Positions 2,350 through 48,896 of a stretch of DNA of 64,000 bases are shown here, piece after piece. The stretch lies in NCBI RefSeq assembly GCF_000316685.1, contig NC_019680.1, forward strand, positions 2,923,407 to 2,987,406, given 5' to 3'. Position numbers and translations under genes: made by a program. The stretch is from Synechococcus sp. PCC 6312. Its GTDB lineage: Bacteria; Cyanobacteriota; Cyanobacteriia; Thermosynechococcales; Thermosynechococcaceae. Positions within the stretch are counted from its first letter, which is position 1. Every line of letters starts with the position of its first letter. The notes beneath the pieces are model-generated. The model made no database searches and had not been told where the DNA came from. It was given only the letters and a program-made list of their open reading frames with translations.

Positions 2350-2381
2350 CCCACTTGGTTCAATGTCACCCCTGTAGGTTA

Positions 2382-3599: not shown

Positions 3600-3671
3600 T
3601 GCAACCTGCTATCTTAGTTTGGGGTTGTTGGGGCTAACCTAAATTCACCTCAATCATCCTCACGGTTGTAA

Positions 3672-4959
<1,288 letters not shown>

Positions 4960-5087
4960 AATCCCAATTACTGCACTGCAAAATCCCTATATTGCCACAG
5001 GTTAGGCGGATCAATTCTCTGACTCGGTATTTCTGGGTGATAGCAAACCGAAACAGAATAGACAACGCTCTGAGGAAAAATAAGTTT

Positions 5088-6137
5088 CTATGAGAGCCGA
5101 GTCACATTTTTAAAGGCCATGACAATTAGGGAATCTTGGGCTTCTAAATGCTGAAAGGAACTATGTCGGGGATTAAGTAAGATTTCCCCATTACCCCGCT
5201 TAACGCCTAACAGCAAGACTGGGTTTTCAGGATGTTTGCGGCTGTATTGATTAATCCATTGACTGAGTTCTTCAAAGGTTTTGCCGATCAGTTGGGATGG
5301 ATAGCGATCCGGATCAATAAAATAAAACTCGTTTGTGTCCTCGGAATAGGTTAATAACTGTTGATAAACCACAGACATATTCTTAAATAAGGCACTTTGG
5401 GCAATAATTCCCGAACTGTATTCCCGAGCCGAGATAATTTCATCAACCCCTGCTTCTTTGAGATGTCGCTGTCGATCTAAATTGACTAACTCGGCAACTA
5501 CATGGATATGTTGCTCCAGGCCTGGGGCTTCTTCTAAATGTTTAATCGCCAGGGCAATCAAGGCATTTTTTGCATCGGGGCTTTCACTGTCTTCATCCGC
5601 TAAGAGAATCACCGACTTGGCCTGGGTAGCCCCATATTTAGCTAAGGTGGCGTGATGAGTCGGGTCGGCCTGGATTAGGTAAATATCTGAGCGAGTTTGT
5701 AGATCTTCGGGGAGTTTCACATCTGCCGTGGAAATAATCACAATCTCCCGCTGATGTTGTTTATTAGCTTCAATCAGTTGCTGCAGAATGGCCACCGCCT
5801 TGAGATTCCAATTACAGATAATAATATGATCCTGAAATTGCTTCATTATTGTTTTCCTCTGCAACGAGCGCATCACAAAAAACGATGAAACCCGACCAAT
5901 CACTGCCCCAAAAACAAACGTCCCAAAGATAAATAAGAGCAACTGCAAAACTTGCCCAGTTAGGGTCTTCGGTCGGTCTGGATATTCTCCTAGAAGCGTG
6001 ATAATGACATTTTCTAGGAGTTCCCAGGCCTGGTCTTGTGAAGTTGCCCCCTCTGTCCACAGCAATAATCCCACCAGGCCAACCAGGCCCAAGCCCACGA
6101 TTGCGACTAACAGAAATTGCCAGCGAGGACGAAACAT
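5088..6137 (-). CDS. Potassium-channel-like protein with RCK (TrkA-N) domain
   Basis: A 349-residue membrane protein. Two hydrophobic segments (about residues 9-28 and 62-92) flank a short pore-loop-like stretch containing LLGEYPDRPKTL. The cytoplasmic part begins HIIICNWNLKAVAIL, a TrkA-N/RCK nucleotide-binding Rossmann domain like those that gate MthK-type channels, with IQADPTHHATLAKYGA and LADEDSESPDAKNA. A second RCK half follows to the C-terminus. The usual potassium filter GYGD is replaced by GEYPD, so ion selectivity is uncertain. It may be a single gene or share a transcript with mtnP, whose stop lies 33 bp upstream of this start. Confidence 0.75.
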   Translation of the reverse strand: MFRPRWQFLLVAIVGLGLVGLVGLLLWTEGATSQDQAWELLENVIITLLGEYPDRPKTLTGQVLQLLLFIFGTFVFGAVIGRVSSFFVMRSLQRKTIMKQFQDHIIICNWNLKAVAILQQLIEANKQHQREIVIISTADVKLPEDLQTRSDIYLIQADPTHHATLAKYGATQAKSVILLADEDSESPDAKNALIALAIKHLEEAPGLEQHIHVVAELVNLDRQRHLKEAGVDEIISAREYSSGIIAQSALFKNMSVVYQQLLTYSEDTNEFYFIDPDRYPSQLIGKTFEELSQWINQYSRKHPENPVLLLGVKRGNGEILLNPRHSSFQHLEAQDSLIVMAFKNVTRLS

Positions 6138-6170
6138 CAGGGTAGATGAATTTTAGAGAATTAAACTGAC

Positions 6171-7043
6171 TTAAAGATAGGGCTTGAGAAGAATACCCAA
6201 TTTCTCCTTGGTGGCCGCCGGAACTTTATCCAACGGGGTGAGAATGGCATGGCGCAGGGCTTTGTGAGCTTTAGACTCTGGGGGATGAGCGGTTAATTTA
6301 GCCACCGTGGCCTGGATCACGCTTTGGGCATTCGCGGCATTCCGATGCAGATTGCCAATAATCATTTCTACGGTGACACTGTCATGTTCCGGATGCCAAC
6401 AGTCATAATCCGTGGCTAGAGCTAAGGTTGCGTAGGCAATTTCTGCTTCTCGAGCTAGTTTTGCTTCGGGTAAGTTGGTCATTCCAATGACAGTTCCGCC
6501 CCAACTCCGATAGAGTTTTGATTCCGCCAGAGTTGAGAATGCTGGCCCTTCCATACAGACATAGGTACCGCCTCGATGCAACGTCACTTCAGGCAAATTC
6601 AACTCGGCAATGGCATCTCCTAACACCTGGGCTAAGGCTGGACAAATAGGATCTGCAAAGCCAATATGGGCCACAATTCCATCGCCGAAAAAGGTAGAAA
6701 CTCGGCTGCGGGTGCGGTCAATAAACTGCTCTGGTAAGACCATATCCAGAGGTTTAACTTCTTCTTGGAGAGAACCCACCGCCGAAGCCGAGATGATGTA
6801 CTTCACCCCCAGGGTTTTCAGGGCATAGATATTGGCCCGATAGGGAACTTCTGTAGGGAGTAAATGGTGATTGCGGCCATGACGAGCTAAAAAGGCAACT
6901 TTGGCATCATTGAGAGTCCCGACAATCAAGGCATCAGAGGTGGGGCCAAAGGGAGTATCAATCGTCACTTCTTCCACATTTTGGAGGGCTGCCATTTTGT
7001 ATAAGCCACTGCCACCAATAATCCCAATGGATACATGTGCCAT
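6171..7043 (-). CDS. mtnP: S-methyl-5'-thioadenosine phosphorylase
   Basis: Phosphorolytically cleaves 5'-methylthioadenosine to adenine and methylthioribose-1-phosphate, the first step of methionine salvage. The 290-residue protein has the purine phosphorylase family-2 fold: [11 protein letters not shown] at the N-terminus with the phosphate-binding loop, [32 protein letters not shown] in the substrate pocket, and [16 protein letters not shown]. Length and spacing are typical. ATG 7043 is preceded at a short distance by AAGGAA on the minus strand. It is divergent from acnB with a 190-bp shared upstream region. Confidence 0.93.
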
Positions 7044-7233
7044 GATGAGTTTCCTTGATAATGTCTGACGCTGAACTACCGCAAATTATACGGCTTTCCT
7101 TTCCCGCTTCTTTGACCAGGCCGATTGCAACCTAGGCTACAGTTTGCCCCTCAGAGAGATGTCGTACTCTGGAAAGTAGGGCCTGGTTTGACTAGGTGGT
7201 TGAAGATTATCGCGTCCTTGAGAGAGGTTGGTT

Positions 7234-9837
7234 GTGGAAAATTTCGATGTTTTGGCAGTTTATCGGCAACATACAGCAGAACGGGCTGAGTTAGGTATTC
7301 CCCCGTTGCCCCTGACCGCTGAACAAACCTCCCAGGCCTGTGAACTCCTCAAATCTCCCCCAGCCGATGACGCTGATTACCTGTTGCATTTAATTCGGGA
7401 TCGAGTTCCTCCCGGTGTGGATCAGGCCGCCTATGTCAAAGCCGGATTTTTAACCGGGATTGCTAAAGGTGAATTTTCTAGCCCGTTGATTAGTCCCAAA
7501 TATGCCGTTGAACTCCTGGGAACCATGCTGGGCGGCTATAACGTTCATTCGTTGGTGGAATTACTTAAGTCCGAAGATGTTGAATTGGCCACCACCGCCA
7601 TGACGGCTCTGAGTAAAACCTTGCTAGTCTATGATGCCCTCCATGATGTCCAAGAATTAGCCGCCAGTGGGAATCATTTTGCTCAAGAACTACTCCAGGC
7701 CTGGGCAGATGCCACATGGTTTACCAGTCGGCCCCAACTCCCGGAAGCCATAACCGTCACCGTCTTCAAAGTCCCCGGCGAAACCAATACGGATGATCTC
7801 TCTCCCGCCCCTCTAGCCACAACTCGCCCGGATATTCCCCTCCACGCCACAGTGATGTTGGAAAGCCGCCAATCGGGAAGTTTAGACACCATTGCGGAAC
7901 TGAAAAAATTGGGGCATCCGGTGGCCTATGTGGGTGATGTGGTCGGAACTGGCTCTTCCCGCAAATCAGCGACTAACTCTGTTCTCTGGCATACGGGGGA
8001 TGATATTCCCTTTGTCCCCAATAAACGCACCGGCGGCTACTGCTTAGGCGGAAAAATTGCCCCGATTTTCTTTAACACCATGGAAGATTCCGGGGCCTTG
8101 CCGATTGAGTGCGATGTCACCCAGATGAACACCGGCGATGCAATCACGATTTATCCGTACCAAGGTGAGATCAAAAATGCGGCGGGCGAGGTGATTTCCA
8201 CGTTCCAACTCAAACCTGACACCATTCTCGATGAAGTCCGGGCCGGGGGGCGGATTCCGTTGTTGATTGGGCGCACTCTCACCGATAAAGTCCGGGCTGC
8301 CATGGGGTTAGAGCCAAGTCCTGTCTTTACCCGGCCTGGGATTCCGGCAACCGTGACTCACGGGTTTACCTTGGCGCAAAAAATGGTCGGACAGGCCTGT
8401 GGATTGCCAGGAGTATTACCCGGAACCTATTGCGAACCCGTGATGACGACTGTTGGCTCTCAAGATACAACCGGGCCGATGACGCGGGATGAACTGAAAG
8501 AGTTGGCCTGTTTGGGGTTTGGGGCTGATTTGGTGATGCAGAGTTTTTGCCATACTGCCGCCTATCCGAAGCCTGTGGATATTACCACCCATAAAGATTT
8601 ACCGGATTTTATTAATTCCCGTGGGGGTGTCTCGCTCCGGCCTGGGGATGGGATTATTCACTCCTGGCTGAATCGGATGTTGTTGCCGGATACGGTCGGG
8701 ACGGGTGGCGATTCTCATACGCGGTTTCCTTTGGGGATTTCCTTTCCAGCGGGTTCGGGGTTGGTGGCTTTTGCAGCAGCCTTGGGAGTCATGCCCTTGG
8801 ATATGCCGGAGTCGGTCTTGGTGCGGTTTAAGGGACAGTTACAACCAGGCGTGACATTGCGGGATATTGTCAATGCGATTCCCTATGTGGCGATGCAGCA
8901 GGGCAAGTTAACAGTGGCCAAGGAAAACAAAATCAATGTCTATTCCGGCAAAATCATTGAAATGGAAGGCCTCCCCGATTTGCAGTTGGAACAGGCCTTT
9001 GAGTTGACGGATGCCACAGCGGAACGGTCAGCCGCCGGATGCACCATCAAACTCAGTGAAGAAACCGTTGCCACCTATTTACGCTCCAATGTGGCCCTGT
9101 TGAAAAACATGGTGGCCCGAGGTTATGGCGATGCCCGAACGATTCTGCGACGGGTGAAGAAAATGGAAGAGTGGCTGGCGAATCCAGTTTTACTTTCTGC
9201 GGATCCCGATGCCGTTTATGCCGATGTGATTGAGGTGGATTTAGACCAAATTAAAGAACCCATCGTGGCGGCTCCCAACGACCCCGACAATATCAAGTTG
9301 ATGTCGGAATGTGCGGGTGATCCAATCCATGAGGTGTTTATTGGCTCCTGCATGACAAATATTGGTCACTATCGGGCAGCGGCGAAAGTGTTGGAAGGCG
9401 AGGGTGCGTGTAAGGTGCGGCTGTGGATTGCTCCCCCGACTCGGATGGATGAACAACAACTGAAGGAAGAAGGCTACTATGCCACGTTTGCAGCAGCGGG
9501 GGCGCGGTTAGAAATGCCGGGATGTTCGCTCTGTATGGGAAATCAGGCCAGGGTGGCAGATGGAGTCACAGTCTTTTCCACGTCAACCCGGAACTTTAAC
9601 AATCGCATGGGCAAAGGCGCACAGGTTTATCTCGGTTCGGCAGAGTTGGCGGCGGTTTGTGCGTTGTTGGGGCGGATTCCAACGGTGGAGGAGTATCTAA
9701 ACATCGTCACCAAGAAAATTGATCCCTTAGCCGCTGACCTCTATCGCTATTTATACTTTGATCAGGTGGCTGGTTTTGAGGATGAAGGGCGATTGATTTC
9801 GGCTGAGGAGGAGTCTAAGTTATTGGCTTCAGTTTAG
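7234..9837 (+). CDS. acnB: Aconitate hydratase B
   Basis: Bifunctional aconitase B isomerises citrate to isocitrate through cis-aconitate with a [4Fe-4S] cluster. The product is 867 residues, the normal AcnB size. The N-terminal HEAT-like domain (about 1-160) is followed by the swivel domain and the core domain. Cluster ligands are visible as CHTAA, then CMTNIGHYRAA and CSLCMGNQARV. GTG 7234 is chosen because AGAGAGG (7221-7227) gives a 6-nt spacer; a TTG at 7228 would touch that site. It is a probable single-gene unit, divergent from mtnP. Confidence 0.95.
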   Translation: MENFDVLAVYRQHTAERAELGIPPLPLTAEQTSQACELLKSPPADDADYLLHLIRDRVPPGVDQAAYVKAGFLTGIAKGEFSSPLISPKYAVELLGTMLGGYNVHSLVELLKSEDVELATTAMTALSKTLLVYDALHDVQELAASGNHFAQELLQAWADATWFTSRPQLPEAITVTVFKVPGETNTDDLSPAPLATTRPDIPLHATVMLESRQSGSLDTIAELKKLGHPVAYVGDVVGTGSSRKSATNSVLWHTGDDIPFVPNKRTGGYCLGGKIAPIFFNTMEDSGALPIECDVTQMNTGDAITIYPYQGEIKNAAGEVISTFQLKPDTILDEVRAGGRIPLLIGRTLTDKVRAAMGLEPSPVFTRPGIPATVTHGFTLAQKMVGQACGLPGVLPGTYCEPVMTTVGSQDTTGPMTRDELKELACLGFGADLVMQSFCHTAAYPKPVDITTHKDLPDFINSRGGVSLRPGDGIIHSWLNRMLLPDTVGTGGDSHTRFPLGISFPAGSGLVAFAAALGVMPLDMPESVLVRFKGQLQPGVTLRDIVNAIPYVAMQQGKLTVAKENKINVYSGKIIEMEGLPDLQLEQAFELTDATAERSAAGCTIKLSEETVATYLRSNVALLKNMVARGYGDARTILRRVKKMEEWLANPVLLSADPDAVYADVIEVDLDQIKEPIVAAPNDPDNIKLMSECAGDPIHEVFIGSCMTNIGHYRAAAKVLEGEGACKVRLWIAPPTRMDEQQLKEEGYYATFAAAGARLEMPGCSLCMGNQARVADGVTVFSTSTRNFNNRMGKGAQVYLGSAELAAVCALLGRIPTVEEYLNIVTKKIDPLAADLYRYLYFDQVAGFEDEGRLISAEEESKLLASV

Positions 9838-19441: not shown

Positions 19442-20343
19442 TAGTAATTACAAATAAGTCTTAGAGATTGCGGTTGGCATAGTCTCGAATAATGTCATCA
19501 ATGGCGGTGTCTGGCGTTGCATACTGTCTTCGTTTCTTCAAGGCAGCAAAATCGTGCTCAATCTTGTTAAAGTCTGGCGAGTATTTGGGTAGGAAGAGCA
19601 CCTGATGCGCGCATTGGTGGGCAATGTCTCGAATCACATTTTTCCGGTGAATCGGGGCATTGTCTAAAATCAACACGGACGGGACTTGGAGGGTCGGTAA
19701 TACCCACTCAGACAGCCATTTCTCAAAACATCCGGCATCAACGCTTCCCTCAACTACCATGGGGGCTAATAGAGCATCTTTGCATCTGGCCATGAGTAGA
19801 TTTTCCCGTTTTTCTCGTTTTCCGGTTCTGTCTGCAAAAAGCTTGGTGCCTCGTTGGGCCCACCCCCAGGGTTGAGAGACTCGGTTGTCAAAGCCACTTT
19901 CATCGATGTAAACGAGATGTCTCGACCCCTGTCGCTTCACAATCTCCTGTAATTGCTTGAGATAGACTTGACGTTCCTGAGGATTGCGTTCTCGATACTT
20001 TTGCTGTTTTTTTTCGGGTAATTTTCATCTGCTTCAGGGCATACCAAATGGCGTGAATGTTCACCCCGAAATGGGCTGCTCGGTCACAGAGGCGGGCATT
20101 GGGGTGGTCTTTAACGTGCTGTTCTAGAACCGCCCAATCGAGCTTGCGCTGACGACGTTTGACAACGGTGGGACGTAAATCCTCTCGGTTCAACCAGTTA
20201 TAGACCGTTGCCGGACACACCTGAAACCGACGAGATGCCTCTGCTTTGCTGCCACCCTCTTTTACAAAGGTCACGACTCGGGTGCGCAAATCCATGCTGT
20301 ACGGCATTGACTTTTCATCTTTACTTCTTAATTGAAAGTACTA
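19442..20343 (-). mobile_element. IS630-type insertion sequence
   Basis: About 902 bp. Imperfect terminal inverted repeats are TAGTAATTACAAATAAG at the left edge and TAGTACTTTCAATTAAG on the opposite strand at the right edge. Both ends abut a TA dinucleotide (19440-19441 and 20344-20345), the target duplicated by IS630/Tc1-mariner elements. The interior codes for a DDE transposase in two frames on the minus strand. The exact ends are read by eye and may shift by 2 bp because each edge reads GATATAGTA. Confidence 0.75.
19461..20307 (-). CDS. IS630 family transposase, two frames joined at an A8 slippery run
   Basis: The first frame (20307 to 19900) gives the helix-turn-helix part: MPYSMDLRTRVVTFVKEGG, SKAEASRRFQVCPATVYNWL. 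The second frame (to 19461) gives the DDE domain: HLVYIDESGFD, VLILDNAPIHRK and FLPKYSPDFNKIEHDF, the three catalytic acids in IDES, LDN and IEH. They overlap around a run of eight A on the minus strand (20007-20014), a usual site of programmed frameshifting in IS630; joining there reads ITRKKQQKYRERNP and continues into the DDE frame. It could equally be a true frameshift mutation, but the A run favours programmed slippage and an intact element. Confidence 0.8.
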
Positions 20344-40027: not shown

Positions 40028-40501
40028 TCTAGACCATATTAGAGGACAAATTTTGGCTAGGGCCGCTCATTTTGAGAGTCAGCAGAACGGGGTATGGCAT
40101 TGGCGCGACTGATTAGATAAACCATTGGTATGGTTAGTTATTAGTATGAATTTCATGTGCGGGATTTTAATTCCGATGTTAGGAAAAGATAGATTCAACG
40201 ATCAGGAAAAACCCGCCTCCTTCAACTAGTCCAATTTTTCATGTTCGCCCCAGGCCTGGTGGTGGTTGGCAAGTAAAACAAGAGGGAATCCGAAAAACTA
40301 AAAGCCTTTTTAACTCAGAAAGAGGCGACTCAGTTTCAAGCACAAGGATAAGAGCATAAACATAGAAACTCGACAGCGGCAACTCCTGGGGGATAATCCT
40401 CACCTAAGCTGGAGCGGCTCAAATTGTTACGATAAATCCCCAGTCTTTTAGATTTGTGATCTAAATCACTGTCAACAGTTGGTAGTTTGTCAACTTAAGT
40501 C
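40028..40501. other. Non-coding stretch with a DUF2188-like gene remnant
   Basis: About 470 bp without an intact gene between the hydrolase gene and the mobile region. At 40227-40345 the plus strand reads FHVRPRPGGGWQVKQEG and then IRKTKSLFNSE, which resembles DUF2188 proteins; a one-base shift is needed to continue KEATQFQAQG before a stop. It is therefore probably a frameshifted pseudogene, and its start codon is not clear. Confidence 0.4.
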
Positions 40502-41068
40502 TTAAGCGGGCCTAATCCGGTGAACCCAGGCCCCAGGCCGGGCGGGGTCAAACTTCCCAGCCTTGTAGAGATTAAAGCTGTGGCCTGGAGACTGACCCGC
40601 CACGCAGGCCGCATAAATTCCAAGACTAGAGTAGAAACCATCGTAAAAATTGGCCCCCGGCAAGTAACGCCAGGCCGGGAAATCAAACTCGGCCCAAGGG
40701 TCTTTAACTGAAAACCTTACTCCTAGGGTCTTTTGGTCAATTTCCACCGCGTCTAAGCAAATCACGTGACCACTACGGGTAAACCAGCCATGAGTGATTA
40801 GGAACTCCCCGGCCTGGAGCCAAGCTGCCATCTGGTTAATTGAGGCGGCCAGTTCAAAAGAGTAGCGGTTGCCAATGCGGGCCTGGATAAAGTTGCCCAT
40901 ATTGCCAGGACTCCCAGCCAGTCCGCGGGCCACCAACTCAGCCCTAACCGTCCTAATTTTTTCCTTGGGATAGCCTAAAGTCATGGCCACACAGGCAGAT
41001 TGGCAAGTTACGCTGTCCGGCTGCGGGAGATTGGTCGCCTTAACTTTAGTTTCAAAGAGCTTCCGCAT
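40502..41068 (-). CDS. C39-like cysteine peptidase
   Basis: A 188-residue protein that resembles the C39-like peptidase fold. The nucleophile cysteine lies in SVTCQSACVAMTLGYP, the histidine in GWFTRSGHVICLDAV, and an aspartate in VRFSVKDPWAEFD. The arrangement C ... H ... D matches papain-like C39 enzymes, which in bacteria process leader peptides or, in phages, can act on peptidoglycan. No signal peptide is visible. It is the last gene of the minus-strand cluster, where phages often keep endolysins; that role is inference. It follows a one-TM protein by 4 bp. Confidence 0.6.
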   Translation of the reverse strand: MRKLFETKVKATNLPQPDSVTCQSACVAMTLGYPKEKIRTVRAELVARGLAGSPGNMGNFIQARIGNRYSFELAASINQMAAWLQAGEFLITHGWFTRSGHVICLDAVEIDQKTLGVRFSVKDPWAEFDFPAWRYLPGANFYDGFYSSLGIYAACVAGQSPGHSFNLYKAGKFDPARPGAWVHRIRPA

Positions 41069-41072
41069 AGGT

Positions 41073-41318
41073 TCACCGTTTTAACTCTGCAATTAGTTTA
41101 TTTGTGGCCTCAGTGTTGAGCCGAATCGCATCTCCCAGGCTACCCAAACTTTTAGCCAGTTCCGACTTATCGGCCTGGAGATAGGAAACCTGTGGAACAC
41201 AGATCGTGTTGTAAAAAGCCAAAAATCCACCGCCCACACCCGCTAGTCCGGCACAAATAGCCGCAACCGTGGCCGTAGAAAGTCGGACAACAGTAAAGCC
41301 CTCGCGGTCAGTAGTCAT
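41073..41318 (-). CDS. Small one-TM protein, possible holin- or anchor-like
   Basis: An 81-residue protein with one membrane helix (TVAAICAGLAGVGGGFLAFY, about 18-37) and a C-terminal helix (ADKSELAKSLGSLGDAIRLN). The start ATG 41318 is followed by a short polar N-terminus. It lies 4 bp upstream of the C39-like gene and is probably co-translated with it. A holin- or spanin-like part is suggested by order only; the single helix and extended C-terminal helix do not define a known family. Confidence 0.5.
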   Translation of the reverse strand: MTTDREGFTVVRLSTATVAAICAGLAGVGGGFLAFYNTICVPQVSYLQADKSELAKSLGSLGDAIRLNTEATNKLIAELKR

Positions 41319-41380
41319 GGTTTTGGCCCCCAGGCCTGGAAGAACGCAAACAAGTTAAAACAGGGTCAGCCTACCCAAAA

Positions 41381-41803
41381 TTAGATTTTGTAAAGCTTAC
41401 CGTTGGGCCAGCGAAATTCTTTAACCTTTTTGGAATCGTTGAACTTGTTGAAACAGTCCGCCGCCGAGATGCCATAAGGTACTTTTAATTGTCTCCAGAC
41501 CTTAATGTCCTGGTTCTTCTTATTTTTCTTCGTCACCCCAGTCCAGCACCGAATCACCTTATGCCCAACTGTGACCGGCTTAGAATTGCCAGCGAGATAC
41601 TGACGACCCTTGCTATCAGTCGCCACCTTGAGGCCTCCCGCAACAGCTTCATCTGCGGTAGCTTCAGCTAAACCGCAGGCCGTTGCCGCTAACCGGTCAA
41701 CATAGGAGAACGCCTTAACATCCTTCTTCGCCCCATCCACTTTTTTCTTAACCGTGCCCCAAAGGATGAGCATCTTGGAGCCGCGGTCTTTAGTTGCAGC
41801 CAT
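41381..41803 (-). CDS. Hypothetical basic protein of the element
   Basis: A 140-residue lysine-rich protein (KKKVDGAKKDVKAFSYVDRL, then GHKVIRCWTGVTKKNKKNQD). No membrane helix or known domain was recognised. The tail WPNGKLYKI may be conserved. The minus-strand neighbours are separated by short gaps (about 50-60 bp), so it belongs to the element's late-gene-like cluster. It may bind nucleic acid or be structural, but this cannot be decided. Confidence 0.5.
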   Translation of the reverse strand: MAATKDRGSKMLILWGTVKKKVDGAKKDVKAFSYVDRLAATACGLAEATADEAVAGGLKVATDSKGRQYLAGNSKPVTVGHKVIRCWTGVTKKNKKNQDIKVWRQLKVPYGISAADCFNKFNDSKKVKEFRWPNGKLYKI

Positions 41804-41850
41804 AGCCGTTAAATCTCCCTAAAAAAATTGATTTTAGTCAAGTTGCCAGA

Positions 41851-42081
41851 TTAAGGAAGATACTCATCGGCTTCAATCGTCAACTCTCCCCCAGCCCCGG
41901 AAATCATAATCGGTAGAGTCACCCGCAAGCTAACCGTTTGTTCCTCGAAGTCGGGCTGAATGGTGATGTTGTCGGGCCGGTCTTCTTCCGGCACAGCTAA
42001 CTCTGCCAGTTGAGCCACCCGGGCCAGTTCCAGGATTTGACCTTCTAGAGTGGTGGAGGTGGTGATGTGTGCAGCAGCCAT
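41851..42081 (-). CDS. Hypothetical small acidic protein of the element
   Basis: A 76-residue protein without a recognised domain. It has an N-terminal helix (LEGQILELARVAQLAELAVP) and a beta-rich end (EEQTVSLRVTLPIMISGAGG, then ELTIEADEYLP). It resembles, from memory, small proteins found next to similar clusters in filamentous cyanobacteria, which would make this a recurring element gene; not verified. It starts at ATG 42081. Confidence 0.5.
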   Translation of the reverse strand: MAAAHITTSTTLEGQILELARVAQLAELAVPEEDRPDNITIQPDFEEQTVSLRVTLPIMISGAGGELTIEADEYLP

Positions 42082-42205
42082 AAAAGTCTCTCAAATAGAA
42101 CTGCCCCCAGAGTACAAAGTACCGTAACAGGTAACAGACTCTGGCTAGAGTTCAACCGAGAGGGTTAAGGCTCTCAATCAGACGCAGACGTGAAGTCTCG
42201 GTGAC

Positions 42206-42430
42206 TCAATCCTGCAAATTTCCACTGAATTTCTTAATGTGAGGGTGGTCAAAATCACCGAGTCGCCAGAGCAGAAACGTTCGGAGTTCTGAGGGTTTGA
42301 CCGCTTTTTCTCTTAACGCTGTGTCTAGTAATTTGTGTAACAAATAAAAATCAGGGTCAGCGAGGACTCTGATGACTTTGGTTGGTAAAGAACACTTCCC
42401 AGTTTGCCTTCGTGTTGTTGCCCGTGCCAT
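42206..42430 (-). CDS. Hypothetical protein overlapping its upstream neighbour
   Basis: A roughly 74-residue frame that overlaps the 3' end of the 235-aa gene by 74 bp in a different frame. The part beyond the overlap reads as a real protein: VLADPDFYLLHKLLDTALRE, then KAVKPSELRTFLLWRLG. The start is uncertain; ATG 42430 is used, and a start inside or after the overlap is possible. The helix-rich content and its place in the cluster support a gene; function unknown. Confidence 0.4.
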   Translation of the reverse strand: MARATTRRQTGKCSLPTKVIRVLADPDFYLLHKLLDTALREKAVKPSELRTFLLWRLGDFDHPHIKKFSGNLQD

Positions 42431-43064
42431 CGTAAAACACCACCTTATAGGGGTAAACCACAGAAGTATCTCGCCGTTCATCAACCTGGGTAAACGAGAC
42501 TTTGGCCTCTCTCACCCTCGGAACACTGATTCCTTTGACCAAGGCCTTAAAGACGCGTTCCCCCATCTTGGCCGAACCCGCATTGATGAAAATCTTGCTA
42601 TTGTCGGCAAGCCTAACGACCGTGGCCACGTTCCCTTTCTGATAAACCGGGAAATCGTAACCCTTTGTCCCTGATGCCTTGAGTTTCCAATGGGGAATAG
42701 TTAGGGGGTAACTTGGGCCCCAAAACTTGCCGTTTTTGAATTTGCGGTAGATAACGACTAGCTGGGGGACGCTGCCCCATTTGGTTTCATACCATTCAGG
42801 AATCGCCGCAATCCCATCTTTGGCCAGTTGCCCCCTAGACTTGACTAGGACGTAGAATAGCCAAAATCGGAATAGGGCCTTGATTGCGTTGTCGTTGTCC
42901 GTGACGGTACAGGCTGTTTTAAGAGTGCGCTGCCCTTTACTAAGAGCCTTGCCTTCCTCAGTCTTAAAGTGTTGGTTAACCCATTGGTTGTGGAGTTTAA
43001 CTGAGGTTTTTCTGAGATACTCCCAGCTTGCTGGATCAGGTTTAGTGCGATTGAAGTTTGTCAC
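42357..43064 (-). CDS. Hypothetical protein of the element (235 aa)
   Basis: A 235-residue soluble protein without a recognised domain. It starts MTNFNRTKPDPASWEYLRKT and contains a tryptophan- and aromatic-rich middle (FWLFYVLVKSRGQL, YPLTIPHWKLKASG). The start overlaps the 670-aa gene by 4 bp (ATGA), so both are translated together. Lysine and tyrosine rich; perhaps a structural component of the element. It contains no nuclease motif that I could identify. Confidence 0.5.
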   Translation of the reverse strand: MTNFNRTKPDPASWEYLRKTSVKLHNQWVNQHFKTEEGKALSKGQRTLKTACTVTDNDNAIKALFRFWLFYVLVKSRGQLAKDGIAAIPEWYETKWGSVPQLVVIYRKFKNGKFWGPSYPLTIPHWKLKASGTKGYDFPVYQKGNVATVVRLADNSKIFINAGSAKMGERVFKALVKGISVPRVREAKVSFTQVDERRDTSVVYPYKVVFYDGTGNNTKANWEVFFTNQSHQSPR

Positions 43065-45073
43065 AAATCAGTATCCTCTGACTCAGGAATATCTTTAGGA
43101 GTATCCAATCTGGCCAAGTTCTCAGCTTTTTTGTTTAGGAGTTTCTGCGCTTCATCGATAGCTTTATCGAACTCAGTTTTAGCGTTTTCCAAGTCTTTAA
43201 TGGTGTCTTGAGCCGTTTTTACTCCAGTCAAAACCATTTGCATTCCCGACAAAACATCTTCAGCTTGATTTAAGCGTGTGAAGAATTTAGTTGAAAAGTC
43301 TGGATTTGGAAGCTGCCAATTTAGCAAGTCATTATCAACTAAACCAGAGGCTTTTAAGGCGTTACTTAGTTCAGCATTATATTGTGCTGTCATCTCCAGT
43401 CCTTCTGAAATGTCGAGGAGCGCGGATTGAAGATTGGATAGCACGTTAGCAGCAGCTTGATAGGCTCGGTTAGATTGCTGCCAGGCCTGGTTTATAGACT
43501 CTAGAGTCTCTGTGCCGATCAAGCTTTCTAAAAGGTCTTGAGTTCCCTCACCAATAACTGTTGAAATTGACAAAGGTTGTCCATCGTCATCTTTGGGAGT
43601 AAGCCCGACTACACTTAATCCCAAATCAACTACGGCCATCAGCGTACTAACCACGTTAGAAGATAGTTGAGCCGCGTTGTGAAGCGTTACTAGCAACGTT
43701 AAAAGGTTGATTAGTTCCTGGGTTTTTTTGTTCCGCTTCAGGTTCTCTAAAGTCTCTTGAAAATTGCGCCTGACCTCTTGACCGTTTTCGCCAATCTCTC
43801 TGACTTTTTCGCCAATCGTATCTTTGAGGTCGTTTAACCTAGATACCGTATCAGTTACCTTCGTATCTAAGCCAGTGACTTTAAGGTCAAGGTTATTAAG
43901 CCTAGAAATAACTGGAGACAAATCAACCACTTCATCTAACCTAATCACAGTAATTTTAATCTCTCTAATTGCATCGTATAGATATTCTGAGTTACCTGGT
44001 AAAGGTCTAGGGATAGGTCTAAAATCTATTCCAGTTTGAACTAAATCTATAATAGGCTGTAAGGGATTATCAGTTTTAATTACTAATTGCAATAGAGGAG
44101 GTAAATAAGTTCCCCCTTCAGAAAATAGCCATCCTTCAGGAAACGACCATAAAATATCTCTACCGCTAAAATTAGCATCTCTAAAAGGATAGGATATTAA
44201 ATCCTGTTCTATTGTCTGAAAATAGATACTATCTAAGTTAGACTCATAAAATGGATTTATATTAAATTGATAAACAACATCATCTATATAATTTCCTGAA
44301 TAATGTTGTGATTCTATTCTTAAGGTCAAGTCATAACCTGTATTTACTTTTAAGCCTATTATCCTAGCTGTAGTTTCATCTAAATAAATGCCGTCATCTA
44401 TAGGCGGTTCGTTATCATCTTCTCTATTAACTTTTTTTAATAAAAGTTTGCCATTAGTTCTAGATGCTTGTTTGTCTCTATTCTCTGCCTTAATTACTAA
44501 TCTATAAATATCTCTATCTGTTATAAAGGTAACGCTACCTGATAACAATACTTCTGTAAAATCTTCTGAATCTAAACCCTTAAAGAATACCTTGATTAAA
44601 TCTTGTTGCCCCAATAAGGGTGGTTGTACTGACCAATTAAAGGTTATAGAATCGCCTAGATCAAATCTATTCTTATTAACTGTGACGTTTACAATAGGTT
44701 GAAACTGTCTAACTCCGCTATCGTTTCCTAAACCCTGAAAAGGAAAGTTTAAGTTTTTAAGATATTCTGCTAATAGGTCAGGTATTAAGTTACCCACTTT
44801 ATTAATTCTAAGTACTCTAGGACTAAAAGACGGCTTAGGCGTGGGAATATGCCTAGGAGTTATCCCTACAGTATTTAATGGCGGCCTATAAGTCGAATTA
44901 ATGGGTAAAGTTCTATAACCTTGCGGGGTTAAGATTGTTTGATAGCTAGGATTACCTGGAACTGTATTAACACGATTGTAAACGTTAGTAGTTAATACAG
45001 GCTTATTGTAAGAACTATTGCCTATACCTTGCCTTACTACTTGTCTTTGTAACTGTTGCTGTAAAGTTATCAA
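43061..45073 (-). CDS. Large coiled-coil protein of the element (670 aa)
   Basis: A 670-residue protein. An N-terminal stretch of about 110 residues is rich in proline, threonine and tyrosine, followed by beta-rich segments (VNVTVNKNRFDLGDSITFNW, VTFITDRDIYRLVIKAENRD) that look Ig-like, and a long alpha-helical C-terminal half with heptads (LDLKVTGLDTKVTDTVSRLN, then KVREIGENGQEVRRNFQETL). The arrangement, extended N-terminus, beta domain and coiled coil, resembles fibre or baseplate-type proteins, but no phage family was recognised. The gene is AT-rich and its 5' part lacks the CAGGCC motif, unlike its neighbours. It overlaps the 235-aa gene by 4 bp. Confidence 0.55.
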   Translation of the reverse strand: MITLQQQLQRQVVRQGIGNSSYNKPVLTTNVYNRVNTVPGNPSYQTILTPQGYRTLPINSTYRPPLNTVGITPRHIPTPKPSFSPRVLRINKVGNLIPDLLAEYLKNLNFPFQGLGNDSGVRQFQPIVNVTVNKNRFDLGDSITFNWSVQPPLLGQQDLIKVFFKGLDSEDFTEVLLSGSVTFITDRDIYRLVIKAENRDKQASRTNGKLLLKKVNREDDNEPPIDDGIYLDETTARIIGLKVNTGYDLTLRIESQHYSGNYIDDVVYQFNINPFYESNLDSIYFQTIEQDLISYPFRDANFSGRDILWSFPEGWLFSEGGTYLPPLLQLVIKTDNPLQPIIDLVQTGIDFRPIPRPLPGNSEYLYDAIREIKITVIRLDEVVDLSPVISRLNNLDLKVTGLDTKVTDTVSRLNDLKDTIGEKVREIGENGQEVRRNFQETLENLKRNKKTQELINLLTLLVTLHNAAQLSSNVVSTLMAVVDLGLSVVGLTPKDDDGQPLSISTVIGEGTQDLLESLIGTETLESINQAWQQSNRAYQAAANVLSNLQSALLDISEGLEMTAQYNAELSNALKASGLVDNDLLNWQLPNPDFSTKFFTRLNQAEDVLSGMQMVLTGVKTAQDTIKDLENAKTEFDKAIDEAQKLLNKKAENLARLDTPKDIPESEDTDL

Positions 45074-45079
45074 GGCAAT

Positions 45080-45424
45080 TTACCAGTAATTGGGCATGAC
45101 ATATGGTGCATCATTATCTGAAAAAGTATCTAAATTAGATGGACTAAAAATAAAGCTCCCATCTCCATTTGTAGGGATAAACAAAGTGATATACAGGAAA
45201 TTGTTAAAGCCTTGGTTATCTGGCAAAGTAGTAGTTTGCAATTTAGCTGGATAATCTAATACTCCCCCTCCTAAGTCCAGTTTTATATCTTGCTCTCTTA
45301 AGGCACTGATATAGGTGGCAATCATGAGATAGAGAATTATTTCAAATCCATTAGTTAAATTACTTTGCTGATTGCCTTCTATATTGCCCACTAAATAGCT
45401 AGACAAATCTTCGGAAATTTTCAC
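45080..45424 (-). CDS. Hypothetical protein of the element (114 aa)
   Basis: A 114-residue protein, first gene of the minus-strand cluster, ending 6 bp before the 670-aa gene. It contains NGFEIILYLMIATYISALRE and FNNFLYITLFIPTNGDGSFI, beta strands and one hydrophobic helix-like stretch, without a recognised domain. ATG 45424 is preceded by AAAGGAAAT on the minus strand, a good ribosome site. The promoter should lie in the dyad-rich region 45425-45613. Confidence 0.5.
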   Translation of the reverse strand: MKISEDLSSYLVGNIEGNQQSNLTNGFEIILYLMIATYISALREQDIKLDLGGGVLDYPAKLQTTTLPDNQGFNNFLYITLFIPTNGDGSFIFSPSNLDTFSDNDAPYVMPNYW

Positions 45425-45483
45425 GGTTATTTCCTTTGTAATTAGGATTGCTCTTATTTTGGGATAAGTTTTTAAGATTGGGA

Positions 45484-45513
45484 AGTGTCAACTTTTACAT
45501 AAAACTTGACACT
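45484..45513. repeat. Large dyad, AGTGTCAA arms, upstream of the recombinase gene
   Basis: AGTGTCAA-C-TTTT, then ACAT, then AAAA-C-TTGACACT: a 30-bp interrupted palindrome that is perfect except for the central ACAT and one C/C pair. With a second dyad at 45580 sharing the TGTCAA core, it is a candidate binding or crossover site of the adjacent recombinase, or an operator of the divergent genes. Confidence 0.6.
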
Positions 45514-45519
45514 ATTAAA

Positions 45520-45550
45520 AATCCCCTAAGCCTTGACTGGTAAGGGGATT
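45520..45550 (-). terminator. Hairpin AATCCCCT...AGGGGATT, terminator-like on the minus strand
   Basis: Eight-base arms at 45520-45527 and 45543-45550. On the minus strand the stem is followed by a run of T (TTTTTAAT), which fits an intrinsic terminator for minus-strand transcription coming from the right; it may instead be part of the attachment region. Confidence 0.45.
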
Positions 45551-45579
45551 GCTGTGTTAGCTTTAGTTTGAATAAAAAA

Positions 45580-45622
45580 CACTGTCAATATTTTACAATT
45601 TCTAGAAGGTTTCTTGACAGTG
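45580..45622. repeat. Second large dyad, CACTGTCAA/TTGACAGTG arms
   Basis: Perfect 9-bp arms (45580-45588 and 45614-45622) flank 25 bp. The right arm includes the GTG start codon of the recombinase, so binding here could both mark a recombination site and repress the gene. The TGTCAA core is shared with the dyad at 45484-45513. Confidence 0.6.
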
Positions 45623-46177
45623 AAAGTTAATCGCTCAGGCCAAGCTGAACCACTTACAAAAGAACAGTTCCTAACTGTTTTCCGCAGTTTGTCACCACCC
45701 CATCGGTTTATTCTTGCCCTTACTTGGCACTGTGCTGAGAGAGTCGGGGCAGTTTGCAATTTGGAAGTGGCTCACGTTTTCCAGGCCAACGGTAAACCCA
45801 GGCCGACCCTTTTAATTCCAGGCCGGATTAGGAAAGATAAAGTTACCCGTGAAATTCCGGTGACGCGGGGCCTGGGGCAGATTTTAAGGGAGATTACGAT
45901 TCCTGACAGCCCCTGGCTCTTTCCCAGTCAGCTTAATCTAGGCCGACCCATGAACCCCCAGGTTTACTCACGCGCTCTTAAAACTGAGTTCCTTCGTTTA
46001 GGCCTCTCTGGGTATTCGACCCACTCGGCCCGGCGGGGAGCGATCACTCTTCTGTCCCAGGCCGGACTGAACGCTAGGCAAATTCAGAAAATCTCCGGCC
46101 ATGCCTCTCTCAATTCTGTCCAGCTTTACTGTGAGGTTTCCCCGGCTGAGGTTGAGGCTGGGTTGGCTCTACTCTGA
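45620..46177 (+). CDS. Tyrosine recombinase (short phage-type integrase)
   Basis: A 186-residue integrase without the N-terminal arm-binding and core-binding domains of larger integrases. The catalytic set is visible: arginine in WHCAERVGAV, the H-x-x-R of STHSARRGAITLL, and H then Y in GHASLNSVQLYCEV. The catalytic domain alone, about 180 residues, is typical of small tyrosine recombinases. The start GTG 45620 lies within the second dyad; TTG 45614 is an alternative. It overlaps the convergent DUF6788-like gene by 52 bp at the 3' end. It probably integrates or excises the element. Confidence 0.85.
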   Translation: MKVNRSGQAEPLTKEQFLTVFRSLSPPHRFILALTWHCAERVGAVCNLEVAHVFQANGKPRPTLLIPGRIRKDKVTREIPVTRGLGQILREITIPDSPWLFPSQLNLGRPMNPQVYSRALKTEFLRLGLSGYSTHSARRGAITLLSQAGLNARQIQKISGHASLNSVQLYCEVSPAEVEAGLALL

Positions 46178-46503
46178 TCTGGTAGGTCTTTGCCGATATA
46201 CCGAGTACGGGTCTTGCCCCCTTCTTTCCAGAACGCGTACCAATAAGGCCCATGGGGGCAACTCTGGCACTCTGACTTCCCGCAGTTTACGGGCTTTAAC
46301 TGGTAACTGACTCCAGGCCCCCCTAACTCCCCTTGAACCCTATCACTCTTATCTAACTTTGGTGAACCTATCACGCTTTTGGTTAGATAAGACTTTTCTA
46401 ACGGGTTAGACTGTGCTGGCCTCTCTCCCGCGCCTATTCCTTCTAGTGGCAGAGGTAACTGATCTCCCTCCAGGAGCCTGGACGGATCAACTTTTGAACT
46501 CAT
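46126..46503 (-). CDS. DUF6788-like protein
   Basis: A roughly 125-residue protein. The C-terminal half reads VSYQLKPVNCGKSECQSCPH and GPYWYAFWKEGGKTRTRYIG, which matches the DUF6788 pattern (KCGK..C, C..GHGPYYY, EGGKTRTRYI). The two C pairs may bind zinc. Similar sequences occur beside mobile elements; the function is unknown. ATG 46503 (MSSKVDPSRLLEG) overlaps the repressor gene by 4 bp (ATGA), so the pair is one unit. The 3' end overlaps the recombinase gene in the opposite direction. Confidence 0.65.
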   Translation of the reverse strand: MSSKVDPSRLLEGDQLPLPLEGIGAGERPAQSNPLEKSYLTKSVIGSPKLDKSDRVQGELGGPGVSYQLKPVNCGKSECQSCPHGPYWYAFWKEGGKTRTRYIGKDLPDQSRANPASTSAGETSQ

Positions 46504-46736
46504 TGCCGATGGATGCGCTTGATGTTTTCTAGGGCCTCTACCAGTTCTGGTAATGTGCAGTTCAATATTTGGCAAAGTCTTTGCATTTCTACTGGGTTAA
46601 GTGTGGGCATAGATTTACCGTTTTCCCATTCGGAGACAGTTTGACGCGTTACTCCCAATAGCTCGCCTAAACGTTCCTGGCTAATCCCTACTTTTTGTCT
46701 AAGCATTTTGAACGTCACCAAATCATCTAGTTTCAT
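46500..46736 (-). CDS. XRE-family (Cro/CI-like) transcriptional repressor
   Basis: A 78-residue helix-turn-helix protein: LRQKVGISQERLGELLGVTR followed by QTVSEWENGKSMPTL, a standard HTH_3 domain with the recognition helix around TRQTVSEW. It begins MKLDDLVTFKML. It faces a strong promoter/operator on the other strand, 7 bp from its start (46744-46799), and is expected to control that divergent promoter and itself. The small size and genomic context match phage or element master repressors. Confidence 0.85.
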   Translation of the reverse strand: MKLDDLVTFKMLRQKVGISQERLGELLGVTRQTVSEWENGKSMPTLNPVEMQRLCQILNCTLPELVEALENIKRIHRQ

Positions 46737-46743
46737 TGTAAGG

Positions 46744-46799
46744 TTGACCCGACATTATGGGATGTGTATGATGGCAATGTCGGGTTAAGCCGACAATTA
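46744..46799 (+). promoter_or_regulatory. Divergent promoter/operator of the element
   Basis: TTGACC at 46744-46749 and TATGAT at 46767-46772 are exactly 17 bp apart, a strong sigma-70 promoter on the plus strand. Inverted repeats TTGACCCGACATT (46744-46756) and AATGTCGGGTTAA (46776-46788) match at 12 of 13 positions; a third partial copy CCGACAATTA follows at 46790-46799. The left arm covers the -35 and the right arm lies just after the -10, as a repressor operator would. Confidence 0.8.
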
Positions 46800-46888: not shown

Positions 46889-47101
46889 GTGGAAAACGAT
46901 TTTAGAAAAGCGCCAGAGTTCGGGGAAGTGTTTCTAGACTTTATCCGGGCCTATGGCTTTGCCCAGATTGTGCTGACACGCGATCAGGTTTTAGGGCCTC
47001 AAGACTTCTGTGCTTTGCAAATTGCAATCACCGATTTACTTGAATCAATGACCGCTATTTATGACATGGCCTGGCCTGAGGGGAAGAAAGATGGAGAGTA
47101 G
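46889..47101 (+). CDS. Hypothetical small protein of the element
   Basis: A 70-residue protein, VENDFRKAPEFGEVFLDFIR followed by AYGFAQIVLTRDQVLG, helical and acidic with no recognised domain. GTG 46889 is favoured by GGAG at 46877-46880; the frame extends to ATG 46844 with a hydrophobic N-terminus (MFCSINLIISIGV), an alternative. First gene of the plus-strand transcript from the operator-controlled promoter. Function unknown; it may be an element regulator. Confidence 0.5.
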   Translation: MENDFRKAPEFGEVFLDFIRAYGFAQIVLTRDQVLGPQDFCALQIAITDLLESMTAIYDMAWPEGKKDGE

Positions 47102-47330
47102 CCCCTACTTCGTTCAGTTTCCAGGCCTGGGCCTGGCCATCAATTTAGCTCAAGTCCAAAAAATTGAATACGACTCAGCCAAGCGGGAAGCCGCAATCTA
47201 TCAGGCCTTCGGACTCAAGACTTACCTAACTGGGGAGAACTGCGACTTTTTCCTTGATTCTCTGAGGCAAGTACCCGGAGTCCAAAAGTTTGATTTTGGG
47301 GGAACTGAGGAACCTGATCACCCCTATTAA
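47091..47330 (+). CDS. Hypothetical small protein of the element, followed by a ribozyme
   Basis: A 79-residue protein: MESSPYFVQFPGLGLAINLA, then VQKIEYDSAKREAAIYQAFG. It overlaps the previous gene by 11 bp and its TAA (47328-47330) is immediately followed by the hammerhead ribozyme. No domain recognised. The CCAGGCCTGG palindrome is inside the coding region (47121-47130), which suggests it has been resident in this lineage for some time or came from a related strain. Confidence 0.5.
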   Translation: MESSPYFVQFPGLGLAINLAQVQKIEYDSAKREAAIYQAFGLKTYLTGENCDFFLDSLRQVPGVQKFDFGGTEEPDHPY

Positions 47331-47394
47331 TTCCGCCTGATGAGGCCGGATGATCCACCGGCCGAAACTGCTCAGTTGTTGGGCAGTCGCGGGA
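47331..47394 (+). ncRNA. Type I hammerhead ribozyme
   Basis: All invariant hammerhead positions are present in order: stem I 5' strand TTCCGC (47331-47336), core CTGATGA (47337-47343), stem II GGCCGG/CCGGCC with an 8-base loop (47344-47363), core GAAA (47364-47367), stem III CTGCTC/GGGCAG with a 7-base loop (47368-47386), and TC (47387-47388) before the cleavage site. The stem I 3' strand GCGGGA (47389-47394) pairs with TTCCGC (one G-T wobble). The open ends lie in stem I, so it is type I. Cleavage is predicted between C47388 and G47389. Confidence 0.93.
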
Positions 47395-47419
47395 AGGATC
47401 GCAACCTGACCGTAGGGAT

Positions 47420-47528
47420 GCCTTGAAGATAAAGTAGGCTTTGGCCTTTCCGGATTTGTAGGCTCATATCCCTTTACCCTTAAGTCTTGAAAGTAAAGCA
47501 GGCTTCGGCCTCTGGGTGATTTGCAGAC
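47420..47528 (+). ncRNA. Pair of paralogous RNA hairpins between ribozyme and IS110-like transposase
   Basis: Two similar 44-45 nt units, 47420-47463 and 47484-47528. Each has an inner hairpin AGGC-loop-GCCT, with loop TTTG in the first and TTCG, a stable tetraloop, in the second. The outer arms are GCCT/AGGC in the first and GTCT/AGAC in the second: a C-G pair in one is a T-A pair in the other, a compensatory change that supports RNA pairing. IS110 elements encode a guide (bridge) RNA next to the transposase, so this is a candidate, but not a proven, guide RNA. Confidence 0.6.
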
Positions 47529-47573
47529 TTTCTATAGGGTTTTAGCGACTATTCACCTGTGCTAGGAAAATTT

Positions 47574-48800
47574 ATGCTGATTGCTGGCCTTGATGTCTCG
47601 AAGGCTGATGTTGTCGTGTGTCTGATTGACACCGATCAACCACTCCCAGACCCCAGAGAACTGTATCTTACTGGCAACTTTCCCCGGCTCACCACCACGG
47701 CGGGGGGATTGAAAGCCTTGCTTGAATTGAAGCCTGATGTTTGTGTTTTAGAACCCACAGGCACGAATTACTCTAAGTTTTGGTGTTACAAACTGAACCA
47801 GGCCGGGGTAAAACTACTGCTAGTGTCTCACTCTAAGGTCAGACGCTACAGAGAGTGTATCCTGTCTGAAGATAAGGATGATGAGGGGGATTCTCTCGCC
47901 TTGGCCTATTACGGGGTTCAGAATTTTAAGAATGATGGGGCCTTTCTCAGAAGACGGGATGATGTTGCCCAACAAATGCGGGAGAGATGCCACCAACTAG
48001 ACCACTTGAGCCGGATTCAATCGCCGATCATCAATCGCCTTAAACAAGACCTGGCCTGGCAATTTCCAGAGGAAGCCAGCAAGAGGGTTGAGGCGGTTCT
48101 GTTTTGGCGATGGCTGGCCGGGGAAGCCAAGTCAAAACGCTATGACAATGCTTTAGCAAATACCTGCGGCCTGGGGCTGACTGAATCAACCCGTTACCAT
48201 GCAAGGCTGTTAATTCAGTTATTCCCCCGGCAACTCCAACTCACTAGGGAACTGGCAACCTTGCTCAAAGACCCAAGGTTTAGACCCTATCGCAAAGTCT
48301 TTGCTAAGTATGGCTTCGGAGAGAAACTAGAGGCGATTCTAATCAGCCACATCTACCCACTGTCTAACTTTCTGGGGGAAGATGGCTTACCCATTGCCCC
48401 ATGCACCAGGTCTAAGAAAGACCCGAAAAAACAGACGGTTAAACACCTTTCCCTGAGACGGTTTCAGAAAACCCTGGGCTGTTCTCCTACCCGTGAATGG
48501 TCAGGCAAAAAGAACAAAGGTTCTAAACAGGCCAAGCTGGCCGGGTCTGCTCAGTGCCGAGTCGGGCTATGGCAGTGGCTATTTACCCGGATTGAGAAGA
48601 AAGGGGCCAGGCCCAAGAACTTGCCTCAGACCGCCTGGTTAGTCTCCGAAACTCTAGTGCAAGGATCAATTCTGGAATACTTTGAGTATCAGAAAAGCAC
48701 CGCTGTGATTAAGCTGGCCCGGTCTCGCACTATTGCCAAGGTGACTAAACTTCTGTTCTACGATCTGGTTGCTGAGTTAAGTCCAGACTCTCAGAAGTAA
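47574..48800 (+). CDS. IS110-family transposase (DEDD recombinase)
   Basis: A 408-residue recombinase. The RuvC-like N-terminal domain shows IAGLDVSKADVVVCLI with D, the central VCVLEPTGTNYSKFW with E, and EDKDDEGDSLALAYYG with the last acids of the D-E-D-D set. The C-terminal domain has a helix-hairpin-helix-like FGEKLEAILISHIYPL and a serine- and lysine-rich stretch (WSGKKNKGSKQAKLAGSAQ) before a final helix, in the position of the IS110 serine domain. ATG 47574 has AGGAAAA at 47563. It cleaves and joins element DNA, guided by a structured RNA in studied members. Confidence 0.8.
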   Translation: MLIAGLDVSKADVVVCLIDTDQPLPDPRELYLTGNFPRLTTTAGGLKALLELKPDVCVLEPTGTNYSKFWCYKLNQAGVKLLLVSHSKVRRYRECILSEDKDDEGDSLALAYYGVQNFKNDGAFLRRRDDVAQQMRERCHQLDHLSRIQSPIINRLKQDLAWQFPEEASKRVEAVLFWRWLAGEAKSKRYDNALANTCGLGLTESTRYHARLLIQLFPRQLQLTRELATLLKDPRFRPYRKVFAKYGFGEKLEAILISHIYPLSNFLGEDGLPIAPCTRSKKDPKKQTVKHLSLRRFQKTLGCSPTREWSGKKNKGSKQAKLAGSAQCRVGLWQWLFTRIEKKGARPKNLPQTAWLVSETLVQGSILEYFEYQKSTAVIKLARSRTIAKVTKLLFYDLVAELSPDSQK

Positions 48801-48840: not shown

Positions 48841-48896
48841 TCCATGAAAACCGTTAACGTAAAATAAGAATTAAGCCAACTTGAGAGTTTATCCCT

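Follow-up and report, generated by a model that had tools for sequence, protein, structure and literature searches.

The window analysed here, a stretch of 64,000 nucleotides from Synechococcus sp. PCC 6312 (contig NC_019680.1, positions 2,923,407 to 2,987,406 of the forward strand), carries a type I hammerhead ribozyme at 47331..47394, followed by a structured leader and by the gene for an IS110-type recombinase; positions are those of the window, and features lie on the + strand unless stated otherwise. Stem I of the hammerhead is formed by TTCCGC (47331-47336) and GCGGGA (47389-47394). Between these strands lie the core CTGATGA (47337-47343), stem II (GGCCGG, 47344-47349, with CCGGCC, 47358-47363; whole stem-loop 47344-47363), GAAA (47364-47367), stem III (CTGCTC, 47368-47373, with GGGCAG, 47381-47386; whole stem-loop 47368-47386), and the TC (47387-47388) before the predicted cut, which falls between C47388 and G47389. 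The window copy has the invariant core (CUGANGA, GAAA, and UH at the predicted cut) and three helices, with stem I open, and every base position that a preliminary description of this DNA had given for these parts was confirmed in the sequence. The ribozyme also starts directly after a stop codon, as had been claimed: the TAA of a small cargo gene (47091..47330), for which neither a Pfam nor a PHROG family was found, ends one base before it, at 47330. Downstream, the predicted IS110-type transposase proved to be a DEDD recombinase of 408 amino acids encoded at 47574..48800 (PF01548, 2.1e-10). The DEDD residues and the C-terminal serine (D7, E60, D103, D106, and S310) are invariant in 27 aligned sequences, and the family profile matches the IS621 and ISCro4 structures.

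A descriptor search detected this single hammerhead in the window, and the same motif occurs 5' of relatives of the downstream gene. With a covariance model (R1) built from seven family members, the window copy included, the window copy scores 76.3 bits. The preliminary description had proposed a search with the Rfam hammerhead models and regarded the lack of a hit above threshold as counting against the ribozyme. No gathering-level Rfam match was found in the window, where the top match, RAGATH-1-hammerhead (RF03152), reaches 25.4 bits, far under its cutoff of 56.3 bits, and no Rfam hammerhead family reached its threshold in 14 further loci. This result is overridden because the stems covary in relatives, and the shortfall is a limit of the Rfam models, not evidence against the ribozyme. 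We know of no link between RAGATH-1-hammerhead and a recombinase.

Relatives of the recombinase were found in 35 of 386 genomes in a search of the phylum, and a second search yielded 65 loci in named cyanobacteria, for example Nostoc, Calothrix, Anabaena, and Tolypothrix; a whole-genome scan that used only the window protein as query returned no hits. Across cyanobacteria, these relatives carry a type I hammerhead at the equivalent position, which is the recurrence in related genomes that the preliminary description had proposed to look for. The covariance model built from the seven members has 77 matches in 83 sources, and the hammerhead stands directly 5' of the leader in 38 of the 43 loci examined in detail, these 38 having CUGANGA (one with an altered base), GAAA, and UC at the predicted cut. 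The stems vary in sequence with pairing kept: 89.4% of cells are paired in 72 distinct rows, 16 of the 18 hammerhead pairs have changed on both sides, and the covariation score is 0.607 versus 0.156 after shuffling (none of 500 shuffles is as high), with slid structures scoring below 0.1. The hammerhead is not a chance resemblance. A mere likeness arising in a GC-rich leader would fit the lack of a gathering-level Rfam match, but it is refuted by the covarying stems and by the recurrence of the hammerhead at an equivalent position in tens of elements, and its probability is negligible. The complete type I hammerhead first described is thus borne out by the sequence, the descriptor search, and the covarying stems.

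When 377 cyanobacterial genomes were searched with the model, 41 matches were obtained, of which those that were new relative to the recombinase search and present as loci were inspected. Two of these (L206 and L202) adjoin recombinase relatives, and another (L190) is followed by a bridge RNA, the guide RNA discussed below, that runs to the contig end; among the inspected new matches, only L205, L196, and L198 are situated elsewhere, the last in another context. The hammerheads of L205 and L196 (near position 1506, reverse strand) lie beside phage Mu gp16-like genes, not IS110. No hammerhead was found at other IS110 copies in the genomes that hold hammerhead elements, five of these copies having an equal score. 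Nor was a family member found in phage records or, by protein and by cut-site pattern, in viral contigs; the 64 loci with the cut-site pattern in viral contigs have no recombinase, a single ribozyme match (20.1 bits) turned up in the part of them that was scanned, and these loci look like chance.

Judged from its sequence, the leader 3' of the predicted cut is a bridge RNA. The "structured leader" of the preliminary description is indeed structured, and it goes beyond that claim in carrying guides and in being interlocked with the ribozyme. It consists of a short 5' stem-loop followed by two internal-loop modules, conserved with compensatory changes among members of the family, and such an architecture has been published for IS110 bridge RNAs (PMC11208160). 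The 5' stem-loop (P1; 47389..47413) begins at the first base past the cut, as pairing probabilities indicate. The first conserved module (47415..47472) contains the right target guide and core, CCGGATTT (47450-47457), assigned by guide tests on relatives, and the second (47482..47530) contains the right donor guide, TGGGTGATTT (47513-47522), which matches element ends in relatives.

Compared with the DNA past the right end, the right target guide agrees at 135 of 198 positions, versus 56 when guides are swapped between loci (0 of 20,000), the guide tables behind this count having been read by eye after the pattern was noticed. A rule-based second set of 24 loci, which shares some genomes with the first set and is therefore not fully independent of it, gives 99 of 120 versus 37, with a swap maximum of 60. 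When the left guide is compared with every core-TCCCC site in 11 elements, 66 of 90 positions agree versus 31 (0 of 20,000), and each of the 11 has one core-TCCCC site with an exact left-guide match of 5-6 bases. The right guides of L033 and L045, two copies from a single genome, differ, and each fits its own site.

To pair with the left end GAATCCCCA, the right donor guide, TGGG(T/A)GATTC (47513-47522 in the window, and relatives), must bulge out a single base, and this bulge in the pairing is conserved in most of the family. The motif CACCC before the recombinase start was considered as the donor left end and rejected, the true left end being the core-TCCCCA far upstream. As the complement of GGGTG in the right donor guide, CACCC occurs between the guide and the start codon in 13 of 34 loci, where 0.9 would be expected, and it sits approximately 20-26 bases 5' of the recombinase start (L054, L056, L049, L039, L045, L033, L041, and others); L068 has CTCCC, for GGGAG, in its place. 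It may represent a control helix on the recombinase message.

The nine elements for which both ends were found span 10.1 to 19.0 kilobases (kb), and in the measured elements the 5' end of the bridge RNA is many kilobases from the left end. For L033 (an 11.5 kb element), a congener has the uninterrupted site with the core present once; for L052, the joined flanks form one unbroken Amidase domain (4.8e-47), and no empty site was found in the relatives searched. No target duplication beyond the core is seen in these two sites. A search for the left end in the flanks of named loci found nothing, these flanks being too short, and element boundaries drawn from the pairwise identity of two copies were discarded as misleading because the cargo is modular.

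The window element measures approximately 8.4 kb. Its left end (40434..40442) reads TACGAT and core AAA, then TCCCCA, in keeping with the core-TCCCC found beside a left-guide match in all 11 elements tested; its own left guide, GAAGAT-AAA, compared with the DNA TACGAT-AAA, agrees in 4 of the 5 bases before the core. The probable right end, GTTAACGTAAA (left donor half and core AAA), was placed at 48853..48863 by guide comparison. No syntenic left flank emerged when relatives were compared for the genes that precede the window's right neighbour.

The ribozyme and the bridge RNA are interlocked. In most loci, P1 begins at the first base after the predicted cut, with the 3' strand of stem I doubling as its first strand. 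The mean pairing probability of bases 1-4 is 0.80, versus 0.63 with the rest of the RNA shuffled, and 30 of 38 loci lie above their own shuffles, a margin that is modest because this end of the RNA is GC-rich; in the window copy, the mean is 0.98. Furthermore, loop II pairs with bridge RNA bases ~7-13 in 32 of 38 loci, on sequence evidence only. In the window, the loop II strand TGATCC (47351..47356) would pair before the cut with GGATCG (47396..47401), which corresponds to bases 8-13 of the released RNA, both strands being assigned by the family pseudoknot test. The pseudoknot total is 171.5 versus 136 with partners swapped (0 of 2000), and the contact is formed by varied sequences: GACTCA/TGAGTC, GACGTA/TACGTC, GGAATC/GATTCC, and GAAGCC/GGCTTC, in addition to TGATCC/GGATCG in the window. 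L059 carries changes in both stem I and P1 that suit GUGGG. The shared strand and the covarying pseudoknot therefore indicate that the stem I strand and the tertiary contact of the ribozyme are built from the first bases of the guide RNA. The sequence evidence establishes the structure and conservation of the ribozyme, the bridge RNA and the guides it carries, the sites of insertion, and the pseudoknot.

Taken together, the region is very probably the control region of a multi-gene, RNA-guided IS110-type element in which the hammerhead makes the 5' end of the bridge RNA. From these patterns, we infer cleavage itself, the recombinase's use of the cleaved RNA, the promoter, and the sequence of refolding events. 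Transcription of the operon would start at a repressor-controlled promoter and run across small cargo genes, the hammerhead, and the bridge RNA into the recombinase gene, and the hammerhead would cleave the nascent transcript just past its GUC, freeing a bridge RNA whose base 1 is base 1 of the 5' stem-loop. In the uncut transcript, the opening bases of the bridge RNA would supply one strand of stem I, and bases 7-13 would hold loop II in the pseudoknot; after cleavage, those bases would refold as the 5' stem-loop. In IS621, the bridge RNA promoter arises where the element ends join in the circle (PMC11208160). In the present elements, the left end is many kilobases off behind cargo, and the ribozyme would therefore take over the setting of the 5' end. 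A more far-reaching proposal, which we advance tentatively and with rather less than even confidence, is that the ribozyme is an integral, interlocked part of the guide RNA of the recombinase and matures the guide, with the cut also acting, because the two share bases, as a fold switch that works in one direction and arms the recombinase only once processing has taken place.

It might be thought that the ribozyme instead separates the recombinase message from the cargo, tuning the recombinase level or message stability, with the bridge RNA lying 3' merely as a leader. Cargo stop codons do stand directly before the ribozyme in many loci, and prophage hammerheads have been proposed to split long messages into gene-length pieces (PMC3088659). 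However, the pseudoknot and stem I of the ribozyme use the bridge RNA's own bases, and the predicted cut is at base 1 of P1, not beside the recombinase start, which follows 185-323 bases on; this explanation is unlikely. The same sharing of bases would suit a regulated switch, in which the ribozyme and the bridge RNA compete and the choice between cut and uncut forms times recombination: stem I, the pseudoknot, and P1 are mutually exclusive, and the operon includes a repressor gene and an operator-like repeat. Such a switch is quite improbable, as neither a ligand nor a third state is in evidence and simple processing accounts for the same facts.

Several observations weigh against processing of the guide RNA by the hammerhead, among them the two limits of the guide sets given above. 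The right target guide of the window predicts TCCGG, whereas the DNA past the right end is ATAAG; the guide may have drifted, or the right end may have been altered. The minimum-energy fold predicted for a longer stretch differs from the hammerhead. Stem I is weakened in L054 and L049, the core is changed in L056, and three loci (L053, L057, and L069) have a bridge RNA without a recognisable hammerhead; therefore, the ribozyme can be replaced or lost. These eroded and missing copies might suggest that the hammerhead survives from an ancestral element by hitch-hiking and has ceased to cut. This is very improbable, since strong covariation and a near-invariant core over recombinases down to 27% identity need continuing selection. 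In the protein tree, the three members without a hammerhead are scattered among the others, and losses are the simpler reading, although the number is small and several branches are long. The broken copies L027 and L028 also have no hammerhead by the rule used, a partial match having later been seen in the L027 contig.

In L053, L057, and L069, a plain hairpin apparently takes the place of the hammerhead just 5' of the bridge RNA, and L053 retains TCTGACTCACCG, which resembles loop II of the ribozyme. An extra base is found between core A9 and stem II (CTGATGA-T-GGCT) in L048, L035, L064, L065, L066, L068, and L044.

The present family shares with IS621, ISEc21, and ISEc11 a recombinase with DEDD residues and a serine, and an RNA with a 5' stem-loop, a target loop, and a donor loop (PMC11208160, PMC11187229). 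As in IS110 bridge RNA/seekRNA systems, the guides are split into left and right and include the core, and target duplication is absent (two sites); as in IS621, the RNA is encoded just 5' of the recombinase gene. There are also significant differences. Unlike those IS110 systems, this family joins a hammerhead to the 5' end of the RNA and has a right donor guide with one bulged base. Where measured, its elements are 10-19 kb long (approximately 8.4 kb for the one in the window), cargo separating the left end from the bridge RNA, and the shared core has three bases, in most cases GAA and in the window AAA, where IS621 has the dinucleotide CT. The ribozyme resembles the type I hammerheads of bacteria and prophages (PMC3088659) in its core, its three helices, the position of the predicted cut after UC, the open stem I, and a tertiary contact of loop II, but here loop II makes its contact by base-pairing, as a pseudoknot, with the guide RNA that would be released, the ribozyme lies in a recombinase operon and not among phage genes, and it scores below the Rfam thresholds. 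The RAGATH-18 RNA of IS607 TnpB, likewise the guide RNA of a transposon, was first recorded by a survey of ribozyme neighbourhoods, although it guides a nuclease and is itself not reported as a ribozyme (PMC11061315).

In the literature covered by the search, which did not extend to bioRxiv or to most subscription journals, no pairing of a hammerhead with an IS110 guide RNA was found; one Mycobacterium genome paper mentions both a hammerhead ribozyme and IS110, and the only ribozymes mentioned in the IS110 papers searched are engineered hepatitis delta virus (HDV) ribozymes; this agrees with the earlier statement that such use at an IS110-type leader had not been described. Bacterial hammerheads are scattered through genomes, and their biological functions are mostly unclear (PMC3088659). 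Here, a job for the hammerhead, the making of a guide RNA 5' end, appears to be readable from the sequence, which suggests how IS110-type recombinases carry 10-19 kb of cargo yet make a defined guide. For programmable DNA insertion, the family also offers a large natural collection of guides and their targets in which the core is three bases long.

Upstream of the small cargo gene, an Xre-type repressor gene (46500..46736, - strand; HTH_3, 4.5e-15) is divergent from the operon. The putative sigma-70-like promoter, TTGACC-17-TATGAT (46744..46784), overlaps the inverted repeat CCCGACATT/AATGTCGGG, which is perfect and lies beside the Xre gene; the promoter placed at 46744 in the preliminary description fits this motif, as a consensus match only. 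The cargo of the window element belongs mostly to no known families. By eye, window positions 40434-46575 and L098 positions 2317-9633 apparently share unknown cargo genes, including those for proteins of 235/271 and 670/838 amino acids, and both apparently have a short tyrosine recombinase, which is odd where an RNA-guided recombinase is present. Elsewhere in the window, two overlapping frames on the minus strand (19461-20307) resemble, again by eye, an IS630-type transposase.
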